Assembly (NCBI RefSeq): GCF_036711975.1
Contig: NW_027248940.1
Location: forward strand, 62,001-126,000
Origin: Onthophagus taurus
Taxonomy: Eukaryota; Arthropoda; Insecta; Coleoptera; Scarabaeidae
DNA length: 64,000 nt
Direction: 5' to 3'
In this document: positions 27,846 to 58,911 of the stretch, in pieces
Layout: each line of letters starts with the position of its first letter
Numbering within the stretch: position 1 is the first letter of the stretch
Notes under the pieces: generated by a model
Database searches by the model: none
The model's input: the letters and a program-made list of their open reading frames with translations, nothing else
Told to the model about the DNA's origin: nothing
Program-made: the position numbers and the translations under genes

Positions 27846-30539
27846 CAGGGTGGTTCAAATTCGATGTCCGAATAGGCTAACTCGGAAACTATAAGAGTTA
27901 GACAAAAAGTAGCTTACATGTCATGATCTCGTTTTTCGAGAAACTGCTAATGCCGAAAACCTCATAGCGCTATCGTCTTTTGTTTTTCCCCTAGAGGCCA
28001 AAATTGGAAATATCGTAAAACCAGCAAGTGCAATTATCTTCGTTATTATTATAGGTGGAGTATTATAACTAAGACATTATATGGACACTTTTTTATAGAG
28101 AATTGGATGACGTAGTCAAAAAAAATTTTTCGGTTTTAGATTTTGAGATATCACAATTTTCGTTTTTTTTAAATGGAAACAACTACTGATTATTCGCTTA
28201 TTAAATTCGTTATTTTTTTCTGATTACAAAAATATAGGGTTCGACAGGTCTATTTCTTATTGTTTTAGAATAAAGCCAAAAATAAACATTTTTTATAAAA
28301 TTTCCATCTAGTATCATCGGCGAAATGAAATTTACAGTTTCCTGTAAATTACGGGGCGGTAGGTAAAATCTAAAAAGTTAACAATTAAATAAGAAGATAA
28401 CTTCTGGTATTTAAAAACAAATAATTATGTTTATTACACCAACTGTTAATACGGAAATATTTAATGACTTGCATTGCTTCACACTATTTTATTAGCAACT
28501 TGATAAATTATTAAGTGGCTGATTTTAGAAATTGTAGGTTTACTACATACCTACATTTCTTAATACTTTATGAATAACTTTTAAAAATTTTCACATCTAT
28601 AAGATTGACATTATTTAATATATTATTTGTTTTTGTTAGATCAAATAGTATTTATAAATATTTTATTAACGCAAAAAACTAGTAATTTAACAACAAATAC
28701 TAATAATTTTATTTTCCAAACATTATTAAAACAATGCTACAAAAAATGCTCAAATTGACCTCCTCTTTTTTCGATGCAAATTTCACAACGCTTTCTAACA
28801 CTGTTTATTGCGTTAAATATACTTATATTTGGAATAGAATTGAGACAATGCTCAAAATTTATCTTTAATTCTCTTATATTTCCATTATCCATTAAATATA
28901 ACTGGTTTTTGATGTAGCCCCAGAGAAAAAAATCCAGTGACGTCAAATCCGGTGATCTTGGTGGCCACCGATGGTTTCCGCTGGAACCAATCCAGTTGTC
29001 TTCAAAATTAATATTTAAAAAATCAGTTATACGCCTAGCAGTATGCGCAGGAGCGCCATCATGTTGAAAATCAACATATCTTTCAATGTGGTTTGTTAAT
29101 ATGTTTAAATACCGTTCCGCATTTAAATTTTCTTGGTATATTTGATATGCCAAAACTTCATTATTTAGCAATGCTACCCATACGTTAAAACCAAAGCGAC
29201 CTTGAGTACGCCTTTCAATGGTACTTGGTTTGGGGATTAACGTTCGACCATATATGTTGGTTATTTCTGTTAAATATCCCCGCACTGCTAATGTGTGCTT
29301 CATCGGTCCAGATAATTGCTCTACTGAAAACTGGGTTTTCATTAACCTGATCTACGTACCAACGGCAAAATTCAAGCCTTCTTTGGGTATCACCATCTCG
29401 TAAATGATGCATGATTCGAGGAACGTATGGCTTATACTTGTGTTTATGTAAAACACGAAGACAGCGATTTCTGGAAATACCAAGATCATTCTCCATTTCG
29501 CGGCTTGATATCGACAAATTTGCTGTAACTGCCGCTAAAACATTTATTTCTTCGTCTTCATTTTCTTTATAATACGATTTTGGTCTAGGCTTTTTAAAAG
29601 AACCGAATGTTTTTAAATTTTTTTCTAAACGACTAAATATTTTCGCATTTGGCTGCCTTCTTTCCGGGTATCTATTAAAATACAACTCTGCAGCCAATTC
29701 ACTACTTTTATTTTGTAATATGTAACATTCTAACATGTCAAACTTTTCAAAGTTTTCGTAATTCATCTTTAAAACAGGATTTTTAAAGTGACACTTTTTG
29801 AATACAAACAAATGTTGCTATGTTTATTTGAATTCCAAAGAAAAATATATGAGCGCCATCTATCAATAATTTATTAAGTCATTTAATAATAATATTAAAT
29901 ATTAATAAAAAATGTGAAATAATGCAATCTATTCCAACTTTTGTGTAAAACATATATAAATTAAATAGTTCAACAAATTTATTTGTTTCAAACATCAGAA
30001 ATTTGTTTTTTTAATTTTTAGTTATAGTACCATAATTTACAGGAAACTGTAAATTTTATTTCGTCGATGACACTAGATGGAAATTTTAAAAAAAAGTTTA
30101 TTTTTGGCTTTATTCTAAAACAATAAGAAATAGACCGGTCGAACCCTATATTTTTGTAATCAGAAAAAAATAACGAATTTAATAAGCGAATAATCAGTGG
30201 TTGTTTCCATTTAAAAAAACGAAAATTGTGATGATATCTCAAAATCTAAAACCGAAAAAATTTTTTTGACTACGTCATCCAATTCCCTGTAAAAAAGTGT
30301 CCATATAATGTCTTAGTTATAATACTCCACCTATAATAATAACGAAGATAATTGCACTTGCTGGTTTTACGATATTTCCAATTTTGGCCTCTAGGGGAAA
30401 AACAAAAGACGATAGCGCTATGAGGTTTTTGGCATTAACAGTTTCTCGAAAAACGAGATCATGACATGTAAGCTACTTTTTGTCTAACTCTTATAGTTTC
30501 CGAGTTAGCCTATTCGGACATCGAATTTGAACCACCCTG
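27846..30539. mobile_element. DD41D long-TIR mariner (family A, copy 2)
   Basis: Ends CAGGGTGGTTCAAATTCGAT and mirror, TA flanks (27844-27845, 30540-30541), ~510-bp inverted arms, and a transposase gene on the minus strand between them. It is the longest family A copy here and the source-like form of the deleted copy at 1731-3133. Confidence 0.9.
28737..29766 (-). pseudogene. DD41D mariner transposase with one frameshift
   Basis: The N terminus (MNYENFEKFDMLECYILQNK, chosen because family B starts alike) has the mariner paired-type HTH region. Catalytic residues are present: IIWTDEAHIS, then DFQHDGAPAHTA, then RSPDLTSLDFFLWGYIK; 41 residues separate the second and third Asp, as in the DD41D (rosa-like) mariners. 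The frame changes once near 29225 (after NPQTKYH, resuming STIERRTQGRFGFNVW). Without that single shift the protein would be about 343 residues with no stop, so decay is recent. It would cut at its TIRs and insert at TA. Confidence 0.85.
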
Positions 30540-30718: not shown

Positions 30719-32330
30719 CAGTGATGGACTAAAGTGTTGGCACACTTGACATCATTAAGTAAAATTGAGGTCTACGTAAAATTAAAATAAAAATTTTATT
30801 TAGTTGTTTCACCAAAAATATTTATTGACATTTTCACTACTTAATATTATAAAATAGAAACATTCATATAAAAAATAACAACAAAATATTTTTAAAATAC
30901 TAATTTTTGAGTGGACAAAAGTGTTCGCACAGTAACTTTTTCATTTATTAAACATAATGGGTTGGCAGCAATGACGTTATAATATACCAACGGAGAAAAT
31001 CCCGATCTGTCATACGCGCGTAAAGGTTATTTAAATAGTTGGATTTCATAAAAGTGTTTAATTTACCGATATGAGCGGCAAACGGAAAGAAACAACTGCA
31101 GCTGAGAGAGAAATCATAATCCGCCTACATAAACAAAATAAATCATACTCCGAAATTGGAAAAATAGTAAACAGAAGTAGATTTAGCATTAGAAGCATAA
31201 TAAAACAATTTCAAAACAGCGAACATTTTGAAAGTCGAAAACGGACAGGGCGTCCACGAAAACTTACCGAAAGAGAGGAGATTCAAATTGTAAGAAAAAT
31301 AAAAAAAAATCCAAAAATATCATCCTCAGAAATTGCGTCAGAGGTAAGGATGGAATTTAAAAAGGACGTCCATCCAAAAACAATACGCAGAACGCTACAT
31401 CGTGCTGGTTATAGTGCGAGAGTAGCCAGGCGAAAACCTCACATCAGTGAGATCAATAAAAAGAAGAGAATAGAATTTGCTAAAAATTTCGGTAATAAAC
31501 CCAAAGAATTTTGGAACAATGTGTTATTCTCCGAACAGATGGTCGAATATTGGTATGGCGAAAACCGAATACTGAATTAGAAGAAAAAAATGTAGTAAGC
31601 ACGGTAAAACATGGAGGAGGGGGAGTAATGGTATGGGGTTGTATGGCCGCATCAGGTGTAGGCGAATTTGTGTTTATTGACGAAATCATGGATAAGAAAG
31701 TTTACCTAAATATATTGAAAGAAAATCTAAAGAAAAGTGCAGAGAAGTTGGGTTTAAACAAAAACTTTTATTTTCAACAGGATAACGATCCGAAACATAC
31801 CGCCTATGATGTGAGGATGTGGATCGTATACAATATTCCACATATCCTTCCTTTACCTCCTCAATCCCCCGACCTCAACCCTATCGAGCATTTGTGGGAG
31901 GAACTAGAAAGGAGAATTAGAAAAAATAAAGTTTCTAACAAAACCGACCTTAAAAACATTTTACAAAAAGAATGGCATAATATTGGGGAGGAAGTTACCA
32001 AAAAACTAGTATCTTCCATGACCAATAGACTCGCCGAAGTTCTAAAAAGGAAGGGATTTCCAACAAGATACTAAACAAATGATTTTTTTTATTAAAACGC
32101 CAACTGTGCCAATAATTTTGTCTACCCAAAAATAGGGTGTAAAACTTTCTTTTGTTGTTGTTGTTGTTTATATAAATGATTATATTTTATATTTCTATGT
32201 AATACTAAGTAGTAAGGATGTTAATTATTATTTTTCGTGAAACAACTGAATAAAATTTTTGTTTTAAATTTACCTAGACCATAATATTACTTAATAGTAT
32301 CAAGTGTGCCAATACTTTAGTCCATCACTG
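30719..32330. mobile_element. Tc1-type transposon (DD34E)
   Basis: TIRs CAGTGATGGACTAAAGTGTT and mirror, flanked by TA (30717-30718, 32331-32332), 1612 bp, the usual Tc1 size. Its right-hand TA is shared with the next element. Confidence 0.9.
31071..32074 (+). pseudogene. Tc1 transposase missing the first catalytic Asp
   Basis: Residues 1-160 show a clean bipartite HTH domain with the GRPR hinge (RKRTGRPRKLT). The frame then breaks near 31530: VLFSE runs into another frame at RTDGRILVWRKPNTELEEKN. The piece that should read DESKF... after VLFS is deleted, so the first catalytic Asp is gone. Downstream, QQDNDPKHTA and QSPDLNPIEHLWEEL keep Asp and Glu with 34 residues between (DD34E). About 330 residues in all. 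It cannot act without complementation. Confidence 0.85.
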
Positions 32331-32617: not shown

Positions 32618-34608
32618 TTAAAAATCAGAATTACTGGAAGAATCTGAGTCTTCCGCTAGTTGGATGATGACAGGAGGTAAATCAGTTATTAATGAATTTC
32701 CCATTAATGTTGTCCAATCTTTTTTAATTAGTTCTTCACAGTGGCGAACACTATTTGCCCACATTTCCGGAGTGTAATGACCAAGAGCTTTTTGCCAAGT
32801 CTCCTTAACACGACAGATCTTTTTCTCCGAGCTGGACTGAACATGTTTATTGTAATAAGTTTTTAAGAACGCCCAACATAGTTCAATGGGATTATATTGG
32901 CAATTGTATGGAGGAAGGCGAAGAACAGTATGGCCATGGTCTCTTATTAATTTGTCAATTTCAAAGGATTTTTCAATTTGAGGCTTGTAATAACGGATTA
33001 TTTCCCATAACGATTTTTTATTTAAGGTTGGTTCAAACTGTATATTATGTTCAGTTAACCATTTTTTCATATCATTTTCTTTTGTGCAGAAACTTGGAGC
33101 TTTCTCGATTTGTTTTGAGTGATATGGAGCATTATCCATTACTACCGCACACTTCGCACCCAAATTATTTAATGCTGGAAGTAATTGATTTTTCACCCAT
33201 TCCATAAAAATAATTGACGTCATATTTTTATGATAATCTCTGTGCTCCGTGTCGTCACTAAGCAAGAGATCGCAATTTGGCAAAAACCCTGACGAAGTGC
33301 CTGCGTGCAAGATTGTAAATCTTTTTCCTTCGCCTTCTGCTCTTTGCGGAATACCGAATCTTTCATTTTCATTTACCCATTGATAAACTTGGGTGCCATT
33401 TTCGTAAATCCAAGTTTCGTCAAGAAAAACAAAAGTATACTCTCCGGATTGTAGGTATTGCAAGTATGTCTTTAAAAATGTAATTCTTTTTGAAACTATA
33501 TGTGGTTGTTCAATTAACACTTTTCCATTGTTAATCTTTTTATATCTATATCCCATAGATTTTATAATTTTATGTAATTTTGATCTACCATTAGTAAAAT
33601 CACATTCATTTCTTGCAAAATTAAGTAAATCATTAAGATTAAAATACTGTTTCTTTTCATGCAATTTTTGTATTTGTCTTCCTAACTCTTCTTTAATAAA
33701 ATATAAATTATTATCCGTTTTGTAGTTCATTTTACAACGCCCTTGTGTTTTTGGTTTTTTTACAGTTTGATATTTTTTGTAGGTTTGAATCATTTTAAAA
33801 ACCGTCGTGCTGTGAACCTAATACAATTAAGTCAATTTAAATAAAACAAAATTTTCCTCTTTCTTGCTATTTATTTTATTATGCTTCTAAATCGATTTCG
33901 AGGAAACAATCCTCATCTTCAGTAGAATTGTCAGTTTAGTTGAAAAAATATATTAATCATCAAATTTAACACATCCTCCAAAGTTAACTTCATCTTTTTT
34001 ATCCAAACTTGAAAATTTCTTATTTTAATAATTGAACAACAATTTTAAAATACACTTAAAACAAAATCCAAAATAATATAAAACAAAACACGCGTTTACA
34101 TTTAACAAAAGATACGAAAAATGGCATTTTTTAACTTTTGGTTTTGAATTTGATATTCTATTATATTTGTTCAATTATTAAAATAAGAAATTTTCAAGTT
34201 TGGATAAAAAAGATGAAGTTAACTTTGGAGGATGTGTTAAATTTGATGATTAATATATTTTTTCAACTAAACTGACAATTCTACTGAAGATGAGGATTGT
34301 TTCCTCGAAATCGATTTAGAAGCATAATAAAATAAATAGCAAGAAAGAGGAAAATTTTGTTTTATTTAAATTGACTTAAACAAAGCTTGCTAATGAATAA
34401 TTTAATCAACTAATACAATTATGTTGAATATAAATTTAATTTTAAAACTCAAGTGCAATACACATACATCAAAAATACGTGAAGCTTTATCACATATATA
34501 TTTTAAATTCGTATTTGGTGTCTCCGTCTGTACTTCTTCATAATACCTAATTATAGAGTTTTTTTCGCGTTTAGACAGTTGACATCCCGTTCCACCCTTT
34601 CTTAACAT
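32618..34608 (-). CDS. DD83E-type transposase, apparently intact
   Basis: Exon 1 (34608-34468, MLRKGGTGCQLSKREKNS...RIFD) and exon 2 (33817-32618, VHSTTVFKMIQTYKK...) join across a GTATGT..TAG intron to give 446 residues without a stop. Exon 1 plus early exon 2 form the DNA-binding HTH part. The DDE core shows VFLDETWIYENG, VVMDNAPYHSKQ and YNPIELCWAFLK. 83 residues lie between second Asp and Glu, far from the 34-41 of Tc1/mariner and close to the published DD82E group (name recalled, not checked). The acidic serine tail (EDSDSSSNSDF) is unusual. The start was chosen as the first Met of the conserved block; an in-frame upstream extension to 34740 exists but looks like TIR-proximal DNA. Confidence 0.8.
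33831..34375. mobile_element. 545-bp foldback MITE with TTAA flanks
   Basis: GTCAATTTAAATAAAACAAA at the left and its mirror at the right are flanked by TTAA (33827-33830, 34376-34379), as in piggyBac-type elements. Arms are ~225 bp and nearly perfect. It lies wholly in the transposase intron, 14 bases upstream of the acceptor-side exon on the sequence; without it the intron would be about 100 bases. Confidence 0.85.
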
Positions 34609-35404: not shown

Positions 35405-37108
35405 TTAAAAATCCTGCCCGAATTTAGCCCGCGGCAAACCGCTCTCCAAAATATTCCCCTTCTTAACTTCGAACAAAATTTCGGTTTTCTCCTGCAACTT
35501 TGGATCTTGCTTACTCAGAGCTTGCATCAAAATTTCCTGCCTCTTGTCAACTTGATCCATCAATCTCTCGTAAATCGTCCTATTTTTCATATTGCTCAAA
35601 AAGTCCTGCTTGGTCATCCGAAAAATCTCCGAAATCTCAAGCGCCACCACGTTCACCGGAAAATCAGTTACATCCATGAGCCTCCCACCTCCGAACACCT
35701 CTCCATCCTCTAAATGACATAGCTCAATTCCACTCGTGTGTATCATAGCAACCGTTCCATGTGAAATTATGTACCAATAATGTAACGGTTTATGTGCTGA
35801 TACAACGACGTCGTTTTTAAGATAAATCTCGGTGTTTAAGCTCGCGATGATGCTTCCAATCAATCCTTTGGGCAATCCCTTAAAAATTTCGACCTTTCCG
35901 ATCAGATTTCTCATGGTGTACAATTTAATTTCGTTTTGGAGGTGCTCGGAGAGCGTCGCTAAAATGGCCTCAGTTCTAAAATAGCGCTTTTGAAAGCGAT
36001 ATTCGCAATACCTCGTTAAACGCTTATTAATATTAACGGGAACTCGCTTCGACCTCAAATACTCGTAAAGTTGCCTCAAAAGCTCTTCGTATTTGCTTTC
36101 GGCCGCGTTTACAGTCCCAATCGCTTGTAATATTATTACGATTACGTATCCGAAAAAGGCTGAGCCTAAGATGGCGATTAATGATAACGTGACGTAATCA
36201 AATTTCGAATGGGTGGGAAAAATCTCGCCCCCCATGCTATAAAAGTGAGCTATGCTTAGTTGTAACGACCACATGTATCGCTCAAACACCGTGACGTTGC
36301 TCCCGGTGAGATTCGCGTGTCTAAACCACGATTCATTCGTATCCCCCAACAAAACATAAATATAATCCACGCTCGCTAAGAAACAAGAGCACCAATGCAA
36401 CATATATATCGATAACGATATTAAAGAAACAATTTCGTGCTGGGTGTCGCTTAAACGCATCAATACCGTGATATGTCGCAAATATTTGTACATAGTGGGT
36501 ACTCGGAAATAAAGAAAGAGAGTTGGGATTACCCCGATCGCTTTTCCCACGGCATTCCACGCTAATAACGTCGACGGGAACAAACATATACAATCGGCGG
36601 CGAAATAAGTCTTTAAATAATTAACGGCGATTCGTTTCGGCTCTAAAACCGCCTCTTTAATTTGAGCGTGATGGTACCCGGAGATTAAATTAAATATGAT
36701 ATTAATAAAAATCGTTACGTTAATAGCCTGGCTGAATGCTCTTGGCCACCGAAACTGCGTTTCATCCTCGTAAAAAACGTGTGCCATCAAAATCGGCCAC
36801 ACCGTAAAGATTACGATGTATATTAAACACCATACGATTTCTCGGTAATAAGTGAATTGGCTGAATGGGTGGATTATATAGACGGGGGCCGTTGATATTT
36901 GGCGTCTTCTTTCAAAGGTAATCGCCGCGCTGCTGCGGTAATGTTGCTTGGAATTGGGGTGGCGCGAAGATACTATCAAGGTTTTTCGAAATCGCCGTTT
37001 TAATTTTTCCCAGTTTGAAGCGTTCGGAGATAGTTTCGGGAGGCACGACTCGGAACGTTTTCTGATGGTACATTCGTGGCGGTTTATATCTTTAAATGAT
37101 TTTGCCAT
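35405..37108 (-). CDS. CNG/HCN-type channel with degenerate pore and cNMP site
   Basis: A single uninterrupted frame of 567 residues. Layout: basic N terminus; S1 about 89-110; S2 128-147; S3 165-183; S4 195-220; S5 223-247; pore loop 275-298; S6 305-332; C-linker 335-405 (EYLRSKRVPVNINKRLTRYCEYRFQ); cyclic-nucleotide-binding fold about 405-505. The filter reads FYSMGGEIFP, lacking GYG of HCN and nearest to the GET filter of CNG channels. S4 (YFRVPTMYKYLRHITVLMRL) lacks the regular Arg/Lys repeat of HCN. In the phosphate cassette, DGEVFGGGRLMDVTDFPVNV replaces FGE...RRTA, so the key Arg is missing. It is thus probably a plasma-membrane channel with altered gating; cAMP gating is doubtful. The absence of introns suggests retroposition or intron loss. 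Confidence 0.85.
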   Translation of the reverse strand: MAKSFKDINRHECTIRKRSESCLPKLSPNASNWEKLKRRFRKTLIVSSRHPNSKQHYRSSAAITFERRRQISTAPVYIIHPFSQFTYYREIVWCLIYIVIFTVWPILMAHVFYEDETQFRWPRAFSQAINVTIFINIIFNLISGYHHAQIKEAVLEPKRIAVNYLKTYFAADCICLFPSTLLAWNAVGKAIGVIPTLFLYFRVPTMYKYLRHITVLMRLSDTQHEIVSLISLSIYMLHWCSCFLASVDYIYVLLGDTNESWFRHANLTGSNVTVFERYMWSLQLSIAHFYSMGGEIFPTHSKFDYVTLSLIAILGSAFFGYVIVIILQAIGTVNAAESKYEELLRQLYEYLRSKRVPVNINKRLTRYCEYRFQKRYFRTEAILATLSEHLQNEIKLYTMRNLIGKVEIFKGLPKGLIGSIIASLNTEIYLKNDVVVSAHKPLHYWYIISHGTVAMIHTSGIELCHLEDGEVFGGGRLMDVTDFPVNVVALEISEIFRMTKQDFLSNMKNRTIYERLMDQVDKRQEILMQALSKQDPKLQEKTEILFEVKKGNILESGLPRAKFGQDF

Positions 37109-37357
37109 TTCATTTATATATTACTATTACTTATTTTGTCTCACCAATATAATACGTCAAATTGACATTTAATTATATAATACCACTTGACGTTTCTTTA
37201 ATTTTTTATTTTTTAGGTTATGCATGATAACTTTTATATTTATTTATAAACTTTAGTATTTCTTTTAAGATATTAATACGTTGTGATGAGAAAGAAATAA
37301 AACGAAATAATAAACAGTTTTTAAATTCACTGAAATGTCAACATTAATTAATAGGTA

Positions 37358-52337: not shown

Positions 52338-54714
52338 TACACTGTTGGAAATAATTCACGAGCACACCCTATATAATCTGAACGCGTCAAGATAAATCCA
52401 TAATATTTGCGGAGCACAAAGGTTTACTATAGACGAGTTTATTCAGGGAGTTTCGAGTTGTTCCGTCGCGGCATTGTTGACTGAGCCGCCCTTCCAAGTG
52501 GAACATTCCGTCGTTATGGAGACCGAAGTGGATGGAAAATACCGGTCGTTTTTAGTGTGGTGTGAGGGACCACATTGTTATCGTACTCTGTGCGCAATTT
52601 ATGGGCGATCGCGTTACTTAAGCGAGTTTGAGCGAGGAATGTTTGTGGGTATGCACATTGAGGTGTATCTATTGCGCGTCGTCTCGAGCGGTCGTTATCG
52701 GCAGTGCAACGGGCATGGTGAGAATGGTCTGAGGTAGGACATAGGTACCTTCAGCCGCGGCCGGGACGGCCCTGCGCATCCCCAACACACGAGGATCGCG
52801 CTCTTGTGCTCAGCGCTTTAGCGTCGTGTGTGTCCTCCTCAAGGCAACTTGGAGCTGTTTGGCCACTGGCAGGGGAAGGCGCACTCACTACGCGAACTGT
52901 ATGGCGGCGTTTGGCAGATAGTGGACTGCGCGCGCGTCGTGCGATACAGCGGATTCCAGTAACACCCGAGCACCGCAGCATACGTCACGAGTGGGTCGAC
53001 GCTAGGCATTAGTAGGTTGCCGAGTAGAGGGACATTTTGTTTTCCGACGAATCAAGATTCGAATTGAGCACCGGTGATGCGCGAATTTTAGTTCATCGGA
53101 GCCGTGGTGATCGTCTTCTCGAGCAGTGTGTGCAAGAACGCCCTATCCACCGACAACCGAGCATTATGGTATGGGGTGCGATTACATATGGTGGATCAAC
53201 GATACGTAGATGGGGTGCTACGGCCCGTTGTGCTTCCCTACGTTCCACAGTGGGGCCAAACAAGGAAAAATGTGGAAAAAAGTTTTAATTTGGTGGCCCC
53301 TCCGCCACCAAATCAATTTGAATAGGATTAATAATAATATAATAACACATTACAATAAATATTTACATAGATATGAGTTATCAATCAGATTCAGATTCTG
53401 AAGAAGCGTCAATATCCGTTTCGTCCTCGATATCTTCCGTTGGAATTAAAATCATGTCCAAAACTTCTTTGTCGGTAACTTTCTTTCTTTTCGGTTTGTC
53501 TGTAATACTTGATATATATGGATCAGAGTTAATAAGCAAGCGACGAAGTACATCTTGATTTGTTTTTTCACGAGACATTTTTCGTGAGTATGATTCTCCA
53601 ACTTTTTTAAAAATTTTGTTTGCCTCTTGTGCTTCTTCACTCAACAATCCTATGGGCAACCAGAAATTCGAAATTACGTCTGCACCATGTATTAATATTT
53701 TGTGTACTGTTGGGGTCATTGGATTCCAAGAATATTTTTCAACATATAATTTGCCGTTTCCAACGTATAATTTTAAAATTTTTCTATATTGATAGTATGT
53801 CCACTTGCTAATGTTTGTAATATAATTTTGAATCGTTTTATTAAATCTATAGAAACTCCAGTAATTTCTGCAGATTTTTCGGGGTTCATGAAAAAACGCC
53901 TTGACGTATTACCATCATTCGTGCTCCCAGACATTTGTTTTGGTTTATCGACAATAAGACCGAGTTCCTGTTTAAACCTAGCTTAAATTTTCTTTTTAGT
54001 CTCAGCAACAATGTCTTGATTTTCTTTTCCACGCGCTTGCCATTTCTTTATAGGTAATTTATAGGAAATGTGTAAAACACATTCAAAAAATCGAATCCAA
54101 GCGTGCAGTGTTGACAAACCAAAGTCAAAAGAATCTTTTTTAATTTCAGCTGTTTTTGCCTTTTCAATGTCATTAAAATCTTTTGATGTTAATCCGCAAA
54201 TATAACAACGTTGTGTAGATGTCGTATCTGTAAGTGTATTGCAAATTTTTCCGTCTACCATTGTAAAAACTAGTTGATGAGTTATTTCGACATTCGCTTC
54301 ATCCATATAATATTTTGTCGGTTTTAATTCTTTTATTTGTTGATCTAAGTATTCTTTCTCCGTTTTAATCAATTCTGTTGTTTCGTGCGCAAATTGAAAC
54401 CGAATAGGCCTACAAAATCTGGTTGATGAGCATTTGTTATTTTGCCACAAGATACGCTCATTCATTGTCAAACGTAACGGTACCATTGACGCAATAAAAA
54501 TGTTGGCATCTGACGCTTCCGGGTTCGTCCAAAATTTTTGTTTATACTGTTTTTGGGACGATCCGTCAAATCCCCATTTTGAAATTAAACAAAGTTTGCT
54601 GTCTATTGATTGCAATAGATCTTGTTGCGCTCAAAATACGATTTATGGTGTGATCCAATAGTCCTTGCAATCTCACCTCTGCCATTGTTTCTGAAACAAT
54701 TATGTATTCTTCTA

Positions 54715-56712
54715 TGTATGTAGGAAAGAGGAGGGTATGCTACGCACACAGCACCTAGGCCCCAACGGGCCCTTTGTACATCCTCCTACACTGTCTCCGG
54801 CTACATCAACCAGCCTAAGGAATTTCCGAAGGCTAGGATACAGCTCAGAGGTGTGTTCCTGATGCCATCTGTGGTCGGCCATTCCTCTCCGAAGTCTCTC
54901 ATTCTGAGGTCTTGCAGAGTGGGGCATTCACACAAGATGTGTCGGACCGTCTCCTCGCTCTCTTTACAGAGGCGACAGAGAGGACTAATAGCAAGCTTGA
55001 GGTTATAAAGATGCTTGTTTACCTTACAGTGACCCGTGACGAGTCCCGGTACAGTTCGTAGAGCGTTTCTACCAAGCCTTACGAAAGACAAGGCTGCCTC
55101 TGCTGAAGGATAATGTAATACTTCCTTAAACAGATGGCAACCCTTAACCCTATCCCACCAGTTCATGAACTTTTTGTGGGTAAAATCTTTAATTATCTCA
55201 ATCTGAGTTGATAAGGACGGAGCGATTATCGGTTCAGGCGAACATGGCGCTCGCTTGGCAGCCCTTTTGGCAAGCCTATCAGCGTGCTTGTTACCTGAAC
55301 AAGTCGAGTGTCCTTTTATCCATTGAAGTATGACACAGTTATGCACTGCGGCCTTCTCCAATGTCAGATGACAACCCATAACAAGTCCTGAGGTAATTGT
55401 TATTCTACTCAGGGCGAAAATAGCTTGTCTACTGTCAGTATAAATTGTAAAAGTCTTACCTACCAAATTGGATCTGACAATAACGTCAGCGGCAAGTTGT
55501 ATGGCGATTAACTCCGCCTGTATGACGGTGGTACTTATACCTAAAGGTTCAGATACGTGGAGTCGGAGATCGTACGAGAAGACTCCGGCTCCAGCTCCTT
55601 CCCGTCTCTTTGAACCATCAGTGTAGATTTTAAGGCTGTTTTTTACCTCTACTTATGTGGAACTTGGGTGGGTGAGATATTTCTTCGTAAAAATGTGTTG
55701 TAGTGGTGTAAAGTCCGTTACACACTCCAGAATTGGTGAGTAATCCACCATTTCATTCCAGAGATTGGCATTTTTACTATTTCTCTCACCCATTAGAATT
55801 CCTGCTGCTCGCAGTCGAGTCATGGTCACCAATGCCACCTCTTGGATGAACAAATGAAGTGGCGTTAGGTTTAACATGTTTTCCATGGCTGCAGTGGGGG
55901 TAGTCCGCAGCGCACCTGTAACATACAAACACGCAAGTCTCTGTACTTTATTAAGTGCAGTAGTGGATGTAGACTGTAGGGTCTTTGACCACCATAAGTA
56001 AGCATAGGTCGGATTACAGCCGTGTAAATCCAGAGGGCATTTCTGGGTGACAAACCCCATGTCTTACCTATAGCCCTCCGGCATTGACCGAATGCAACGT
56101 ACGCTTTTTTTACTCTATTATCTAGGTGGGCTCTCCATGTCATTTTATTGTCAAGTGTGATGCCCAGATATTTAACTTCTTTTGACAATACCAATGGAGT
56201 ATCAGCAAGGGATGGCATTCTGGGATTGCCAACCTTCCTCATCCGTGTGAAGAGAATCAACTCTGTCTTCTTAGGATTCACAGAGAGTCTTTGTTCGTCA
56301 CACCAAGTCTCTATCAGTTTGAGAGCTACTTGCATCCTGTCAAACAGCACGTTTATATACTTGCCTTTGACGAGAATGGTTAAATCATCTGCGTAACCAA
56401 CTGTGATAAAGTTGGCTTCGGCGAGGCGGTTCAAGAGGCTATCCAGGGTGAGGTTCCACAAAAGTGGGGATAGTACACCCCCTTGTGGACAGCCTCGAGT
56501 AACTCCTCCTTGAAGACTGACATCGCCAGCCCTAAGCTTAACTATCCTATGTTTAAGAGTGTTCTCAATCCAACCACAAAGAGTCGGTGGAACATTATGC
56601 TCTAACAAGGCATCGTTAATACCAGAGAAAGTTGTTTTATCAAAAGCTCCCTCTATATCTACGAAAACCCCCAGGGCGGACTCCTTTAGGTCCAGCGCCC
56701 CACCAACAAAGC
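54715..56712 (-). mobile_element. 5'-truncated RNase H-bearing LINE inside Transib
   Basis: Flanked by a 13-bp duplication ATGTATTCTTCTA (54702-54714 and 56713-56725). The 5' end falls inside the RT domain, as is usual for truncated LINE copies. Confidence 0.9.
54801..56712 (-). pseudogene. LINE RT + RNase H, two frameshifts
   Basis: The frame is open at the insertion edge and starts within RT: VFVDIEGAFDKTTF (catalytic Asp), GCPQGGVLSPLLWN, GYADDLTILVKG. A frame change near 56030 leads to the thumb (KVQRLACLYVTGALRTTPTA), another near 55645 leads to RNase H: KIYTDGSKRREGAGAG, IQAELIAIQLA, YTDSRQAIFAL, KGHSTCSGNKHADRLAKRAA. A C-terminal zinc knuckle CRLCKESEETVRHILCEC follows, with the stop at 54801. 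RT-RNase H-CCHC order suits the I/Loa/R1 group. Confidence 0.88.
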
Positions 56713-58911
56713 ATGTATTCTTCTAATGGATAGCATTCTTTTTTTGCAAGTTGAATTTCTTTGTAAGAAGGAAATCGCAATGGATCTTTCTTGCGTATTT
56801 TATTATATTGCTCTTTGCTAAGAGTGGCATCAACAAATAAAGAAAGTGCTTCGCTTCGTGGAAGTTTTTGAGAAATTACACCTTCTAGGGATTTTCGGTA
56901 TCGAGACTTGTACCTACATCGTAAAAGGTATAGTATAAAAAAATGAAAAGAAAATATTTTTGCAAACAACTATTGTTTTTAACCCAGATAAAAAATCATC
57001 TAATAGATAAGTTTTTTAATCAGGTGAATGAACAAAACAACTATACTTGTTGGCTCGCGCTGGAGACGTGGTTGTTATATCTTTCAGTACGCTTGCAGCA
57101 TCGCTCAATCCAGATGAAAGAAGACTCATCTGAGCCGCATAAACCAGCTCATCAGAATCATGGGAAGCACGTATTATTTCGGTTTTTTGCCGTTTGGATC
57201 TTTCACATACATCCGCAAAAGGTTTTGTTGGTCTTCCTAACTTTTTCTGCCCCGGTTCTTTACAATAAATAGCAAATCCTATGGAAGTATTTAGCCAATT
57301 CTCATTTTCCTTCAAAAATCTATCTTCTTTTCTTTGAGACTTTTGCCATCTACTTTTAAAATCCGATGCAAAATGAGAAACTGCCTTTTTCATTTCTGGA
57401 GTAATATCCATATCCATAGGATATTTCGTGAAGTTTTTAATGTACTGTTTCAGTGAGTTCAGTTGTTCATCCAAATTTTTCTCATGAGAACTCCTCATTT
57501 CGTAAACGAGAGTACGTCGTAGGACAGAGATAAATAAACCGGATGCTAAATAATTAAACAAAACCGTTTTATAGTATACTGTCTTTTAAGATGAGTATTT
57601 TGGAACACATTAATTTATTCCCATGTTCATTTTTAAATTGAATCCTTTTAAACAATAAATTTAAAACATAGCGATAAGTATATTTTGAATTTAGTATCTA
57701 ACATGGCATTATTAATTATAGCGTTGCATGTTGTTCCGTGTTCCGTAAGAAAAGAAAGTCCGTAGATATTTGTTTATATAAAATGGCGCAAATGTGCGCA
57801 AACTTTTTTGATTGATTATGAAACTACATTAGTCTCTTTATGTTATAGAGGAAAAATTTTGACCGGATATCATCCGGAAGGTTATCAAAAGTCAACCTTA
57901 ACATTTTCTTATACGTCAGTACTTATAAAATTAAAATTATAGTAAAAAGGTAAACAACTAACCTTTAGGTTGATTTTCCATCGCAAAATAAATAATAATA
58001 ATAAATCGCCACACAAAGAAATTATATAAAAATATTTCGAAACCTCTATATAATTTTTACTGATTTGTAATAAGTCAAACTTTCTACTGTTATATCCGGA
58101 GCACCAGCGATCTCTTTGATATTTTTATTGTTGAGTAGGGTAGTTAGGTTATGTACCTGCATGTTGTCATAGAAAATTGGCCATAAATATGAATTATATT
58201 TTTCGACTTTTTTCCAACTTTTCATTGCTTTGGCCCCACTGTGCGTTCGGCGGCTCCCAGGTCTGCTATATATGCACGACAACACATCGGGCGTGTTGTA
58301 CAGACCTTTGTGGAAGAGCACCGTATACGAATGCTTCCATGGCTAGCTCCGTTTCCGCATCTGAATCCGATCGAACATATTTGGGACATGACTGGTCGGA
58401 GACTTCTACGTTATCCGGCTTTCTCGGCTAACGTTGAGGAGCTATGGAGGCGAGTTGAGGTGGCATGGTTGGCATTCCCTCTCATTACAATACAGCGACT
58501 TATAGATTCCATGTCACGTCGTGTTGCGATAGTACGCGAAGCTCACGGGGGATACTCTCGCTATTGATGTTTCTCCTCCCAGCAGAGTTGTGCCGCTCTC
58601 CATGTGAGAGTAAGTTACACTACTTTAGTACTACTTCCATACCAAATTTTATTGCGCTAGACACACGCATTCAGATTATACAGGGTGTGCTCGTGAATTA
58701 TTTCTAACAGTGTAGTTTCACGAAAAATCGCGGATTAGCAAGATGCGGTTATTTCGAAAACGACCTGGCGAATTTCAACGCGGTTTTTACCAAAATATGT
58801 CAAATAATGTCAGTTGTCGGATTCCGTTATCAGTTTTTCAAAATTAGCGCTCCCTAATTTTTTAAGAGAGATTTAATGGAATTACAAATTAAAGAGAAAC
58901 AGTAATAAGCT

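Follow-up and report, generated by a model that had tools for sequence, protein, structure and literature searches.

Transib transposons are related to the enzyme by which antibody genes are cut, and Kapitonov and Jurka were reportedly the first, in 2005, to link the RSS with the TIRs of Transibs. This link is cited in papers including PMC7204232 and PMC4411706, as far as the available portions of these two sources go. In the available part of PMC8355894, Transib ends are described with heptamer and nonamer-like blocks, one set of Transibs having symmetric spacers of 20–22 bp and a few having 12/23 spacers, and the accessible portion of PMC8289069 notes that Transib favours GC in its 5-bp target sites. 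An equivalent of the nonamer-binding domain (NBD) with GRP was reported in both Transib subgroups by Tao et al. 2022 (PMC9435367). For HzTransib from Helicoverpa zea (six PDB entries, among them 6pqn), the available excerpt of PMC6941560 gives the catalytic triad as D126, D225, and E436 and describes how a hairpin forms on the flanking DNA when the element is excised.

The element examined here lies in a window (the whole stretch of 64,000 nucleotides of Onthophagus taurus DNA that was analysed) and shares with HzTransib a homologous transposase, with D, D, and E at corresponding positions, and ends that resemble the RSS heptamer (PMC8289069, accessible portion). The ends of HzTransib show little or no nonamer similarity in that same portion of PMC8289069, whereas the window family carries an A-rich block (A-block) at +23. 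The HzTransib chain in the PDB starts just after the GRP domain, whereas the window family codes for this domain upstream. Like Transib Subgroup II (PMC9435367), the window family has a GRP-bearing N-terminal domain and symmetric ends, which are one of the two kinds in that subgroup; nothing was found that separates the two, and on its closeness to HzTransib the window family would probably be a member. Both the RSS-like ends of Transibs and a GRP "nonamer-binding" region in their transposases have already been published, so the window family joins a known kind.

Ends and target site of the element

The Transib copy occupies positions 53246–58243, ends included. These are the limits proposed in the initial annotation, and they proved correct to the base, with TIRs identical at 31 of 39 bases and a 5-bp direct repeat, CGTTC, on both sides (53241..53245 and 58244..58248). 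The left TIR (53246..53284, plus strand), on the 3' side of the transposase gene, consists of a heptamer (53246–53252), a 23-nt spacer, and the A-block AAAAAAGTT (53276–53284); the right TIR (58205..58243, minus strand), on the 5' side of the gene, has its heptamer at 58237–58243, again a 23-nt spacer, and the A-block AAAAAAGTC (58205–58213). The layout common to both ends is CACAGTG, 23 nt, and AAAAAAGT, so that the CACAGTG start and the A-rich block 23 bases further in, both of which had been claimed for each end, were borne out. CACAGTG is the heptamer consensus of the V(D)J RSS, and the A-run occupies the place of the A-run in the nonamer consensus of the V(D)J 23-RSS. Heptamer and spacer length are thus the same as in a 23-RSS, whereas the likeness to the nonamer is confined to its A-run. 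V(D)J signals pair as 12/23, whereas both ends of the window Transib are of the 23 type, and the latter is a mobile element with no RAG2 rather than a gene-segment signal.

The two flanks are the halves of one Tc1-like transposase gene (52722..58567, plus strand), which received the Transib insertion. HTH_Tnp_Tc3_2 was matched in one flank (52722–53012; E 2.4e-7, just under the Pfam curated cut-off) and, weakly, DDE_3 in the other (58193–58567; E 0.0068, under the Pfam cut-off). All three Tc1-like copies that were fetched contain the empty site, two of them reading CGTTC and the third TGTTC, and the bases that they have in excess of the window flanks are located away from the junction. The joined flanks were spanned, with at most one end base missing, by 38 of the 40 genome matches listed (297 candidates, 40 scored). 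The direct repeat together with these empty sites upholds the earlier reading of CGTTC as a CG-bearing 5-bp target-site duplication (TSD).

TSDs of further elements were sought as exact 5-bp repeats, CG not being required. CG was present in the TSDs of all six paired elements of the window-element family and its deletion derivative (CGTTC, CGGCG, GGTCG, CGACG, CAGCG, and CGTGG) and of all four paired elements from other families (CGACA, CATCG, CGTCT, and CGTCG); a fifth pair from another family, L066/L067, has GGCCG by eye. The pair at L058 (AAAAT, without Transib heptamers) was excluded as chance, the end flanks of L060 differ by one base (CGCTG versus CGCTT), and the pair search found no TIR pair for two further copies of the window-element family, L026 and L027. 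Several features of the Transib superfamily are found here: a homologous transposase, a D-D-E triad, a CG-bearing 5-bp TSD, and CAC-starting TIRs with an RSS-like heptamer.

Elsewhere in the window, frames that look like transposases of other DNA transposons were picked out by eye (28737–29817, 31062–32074, and 32618–33817), as was a long open frame for a putative cyclic-nucleotide-gated ion channel (35405–37120).

Transposase remains, nested retrotransposon, and relatives

The transposase is encoded on the minus strand. Its central part is left as an open frame at 53983..54630, which matches HzTransib (PDB 6pqn) with E 8e-49, and its C-terminal part as one at 53381..53908 (HzTransib, E 1.1e-21). 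Both frames are broken. The former contains the two catalytic Asp residues (54565–54567 and 54253–54255) and the latter, separately, the catalytic Glu (53624–53626). By hand count in the alignments, these residues align with chain positions 109, 208, and 419 of HzTransib, which on addition of 17 become D126, D225, and E436, matching the published triad; the RAG1-core-like Asp, Asp, and Glu that had been noticed in the coding remains are thus placed individually. HzTransib was the sole solved structure matched by the 53983–54630 frame at E ≤0.001. Homology to RAG1 became visible only with a family profile, chiefly in the C-terminal catalytic part. With a profile built from eight related frames of this genome, RAG1 or RAG1-like chains made up 15 of the 16 PDB sequences listed at E ≤1, the best matches, including 6v0v and 3jbw, having E of about 1e-7 (lowest 9e-8). 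The transposase pieces of the window were not assigned to any Pfam family, and two of three longer relatives gave weak RAG1 matches below the curated cut-off (E 0.0012 and 0.00014). The Transib/RAG1 hit anticipated for the 54.0–54.6 kb frame was therefore obtained directly for Transib and by way of the family profile for RAG1.

Upstream, the second exon would start at 56726..56913 (minus strand), the region where the HzTransib chain begins, and a putative GT...AG intron of 133 nt (56914..57046, minus strand) would separate the core from the GRP domain; several related families read through this region unbroken. The N-terminal domain is found in an open frame at 57016..57585 (minus strand), the last part of which enters the putative intron, with the GRP motif from 57237 down. 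In the window-element family the GRP domain seems to lie on its own exon. The GRP motif was present in all 10 aligned N-terminal pieces, which were chosen after GRP had been seen and of which two are near-identical, and is lacking from the N-terminal pieces of L059 and L060, which appear to be decayed kin of L058 and L055. The GRP domain resembles the RAG1 NBD weakly here, both in a profile comparison (hhalign probability 1.4, E 0.036) and as a collinear stretch of 2.8 bits in the family profile; in the PDB, the only matches of the N-terminal profile at E ≤10 were two FliS chains and the core of HzTransib. We infer that this domain reads the A-block. The poor nonamer similarity of HzTransib would fit its chain without a GRP domain, and the two together suggest that the A-block is dispensable for some Transibs, as far as the available part of PMC8289069 describes the ends. 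Our guess is that HzTransib has been studied without an upstream GRP-coding exon, its chain starting about where the second exon starts here.

A piece of a non-LTR retrotransposon (54715..56712, minus strand) is nested within the copy, flanked by a 13-bp duplication, ATGTATTCTTCTA, at 54702..54714 and 56713..56725. It contains reverse transcriptase (RVT_1, PF00078), RNase_H (PF00075), and zf-RVT (PF13966) domains, and the matches of six other copies stop on both sides of it. No poly-A was seen at the 3' end of the piece. The nested piece and frame breaks divide the transposase gene, so the window copy is dead and cannot make a transposase. The nested piece, the separate frame of the Glu, and the Tc1-like gene around the element go beyond what the initial annotation had recorded.

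Identity to the window copy is 89–98.5% for six other copies that retain transposase sequence (L022 to L027), with interruption around the retrotransposon; one of these, L022, does not carry the nested element and measures 3004 bp, which leaves space for one gene. A 1.25-kb derivative, L028, has retained the ends. Transibs are abundant and diverse in the O. taurus genome, with at least 153 matches to the core (596 candidates, 150 scored), at least 111 matches to a second family (964 candidates, 108 scored), and several Transibs in open frames of 640–758 codons. Among viral contigs and prokaryote genomes, no relatives were confirmed (0 in each). The C5 copy of the window-element family, L039, is apparently inserted within the coding part of another Transib; by eye, the adjoining open frame has Transib core sequence right up to the element end.

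End signals across Transib families

Ends were collected by their heptamer, G-rich following bases, and CG in the flank, with no criterion beyond base 10. The first set comprised 66 ends in 21 clusters, none of which was dropped. AAA starts at position 33 in 14 of the 21 clusters, the maximum in 2000 shuffles being 9 at any offset, and at position 23 in 12 of 21; the positions kept are the heptamer, G at 29, the A-run at 33–36, and, more loosely, an A-run at 22–25. The second set comprised 74 ends in 25 clusters, of which 21 were kept after removal of L019 (without a neighbouring transposase), L032 minus (within coding sequence), L043 at 11 (no end, by eye), and L058 (shifted by 2). In this set the nonamer match peaks at offsets 30–31 (4.90 and 4.67 of 9; null maximum 4.05). 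A final, hand-made list of 22 ends also omits two entries: L066 minus repeats, in reverse, a heptamer that was already included, and L069 minus is probably no end. The list adds L057 (flank without CG, by eye), L070 (a CACAGTG just beyond a homology break, set by eye; spacer 22), and L077 (end set by the homology drop of three copies; heptamer rejected by the filter). The two earlier sets are less curated and give the same main peak.

Averaged over the 22 ends, the match to the RSS nonamer is highest at spacers of 22–23 (5.05 and 4.82 of 9), and the value of 5.05 was reached at any offset by none of 2000 dinucleotide shuffles, although this significance is overstated because all Transib ends are homologous by shared descent. 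A spacer of 22 or 23 is best in 16 of the 22 ends, the remaining six having 9, 11, 24, 25, 30, and 31, and AAA falls within 31–37 in all except L066 and L074. The 23-base layout is thus a trait that recurs in most Transib ends examined here, the window copy included. The initial annotation had counted this spacing in a single copy and named drift of the A-rich block as the observation that would speak against it; in these ends the block hardly moves, and its position is conserved above the shuffle background. As a separate observation on spacer length (L070 compared with L064), 7 bases between the heptamer and the A-block are gone from the end of one copy of the L064 family, where the spacer is 15 versus 22 in a copy that is 98.7% identical over 530 aligned bases.

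The A-block at +23 might be mere A+T-rich subterminal sequence, or reflect kinship of the ends, and have no role in recognition. The homology that inflates the shuffle statistics and the two ends without the run are compatible with this reading, as is the occurrence of AAA elsewhere: 7-nt windows clear of both peaks hold it in 0 to 8 of the 21 ends. However, the bases between the blocks are scrambled across families (0.03–0.35 bits at positions 15–21 of the first set), whereas positions 35 and 33 retain 1.45 and 1.14 bits; the peak also persists, at 5.22, in a strict set of nine ends <45% identical (0 of 2000 shuffles), and at the L077 end, which was placed by homology drop, the A-block still lies at spacer 23. 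A block without any such role is on balance unlikely. That the layout is a chance feature of the window copy, where the right block AAAAAAGTC resembles the RSS nonamer mainly in its A-run, has practically no probability left: other copies have the same ends, most ends of other families have the same spacing, and the statistics of both the second set and the 22-end list refute it.

It is highly unlikely that the element is instead RAG-like (RAGL), accompanied by a RAG2-like partner, even though a heptamer and a 5-bp TSD are common to RAGL elements according to the available part of PMC7204232. Neither a kelch nor a PHD family was matched among nine open frames of the window (Pfam, E ≤0.1), the 3004 bp of L022 correspond to the size of one gene, and the core frame finds HzTransib directly and RAG1 only through a profile. 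With no RAG2-like frame among the nine scanned and an element of one-gene size, RAGL identity was rejected, and the single-gene organization of a Transib is what is found.

A second A-run was observed in a position equivalent to the nonamer A-run of a 12-RSS, one helical turn nearer the heptamer. AAA lies within 21–26 in 14 of the 22 ends, and both runs are present in 13; the eight ends without it are L004, L044, L057, L063, L066, L067, L070, and L077, the run of L070 being one base nearer the heptamer than this interval. By eye, in the six families with both ends paired, the second run is at both ends in four, at one end in one, and at neither in one. Its peak of 4.0 at offsets 19–21 was reached there by 0 of 2000 shuffles and anywhere by 1 of 2000. 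The corresponding counts in the strict set of nine ends are 34 and 499 of 2000, and the peak of 3.95 in the second set exceeds the null 95% value (3.67) and falls below the null maximum (4.05). Given the weak shuffle support in the strict set, the second run is looser and suggestive only.

A dead Transib and a possible origin of the 12/23 signal

The window element is almost certainly a dead, formerly autonomous Transib cut-and-paste transposon with an end signal of heptamer and A-block, later interrupted and decayed; the Transib reading of the initial annotation is supported by the HzTransib matches, triad, TSD, and ends. Both ends would have been bound by one transposase, encoded in two exons, that recognized the heptamer beside the cut and the A-block 23 nt further in. 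Cutting would have been performed by the D-D-E active site, presumably leaving a hairpin on the flank in the window-element family as in HzTransib and RAG, and the element would have inserted at a CG-bearing 5-bp site, here within the Tc1-like transposase gene. Afterwards the Transib was hit by a non-LTR retrotransposon insertion, and its frame broke down.

One family and a Transib-rich genome are thereby added to a well-described superfamily, consistent with the known link of Transibs to V(D)J recombination. The sole point worth carrying forward is the two-register A-run, which is possibly new; no description of it in Transib ends was found in a limited literature search, which is no proof of novelty. 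It is conceivable, if rather a long shot, that a nonamer-binding domain of the GRP type could read the end of the ancestral RAG transposon in either of the two registers, and that the vertebrate 12- and 23-signals each kept one run, spacer length remaining unchanged. Diverged families with defined ends in one genome thus provide concrete positions at which the origin of the two-part 12/23 signal may be considered.
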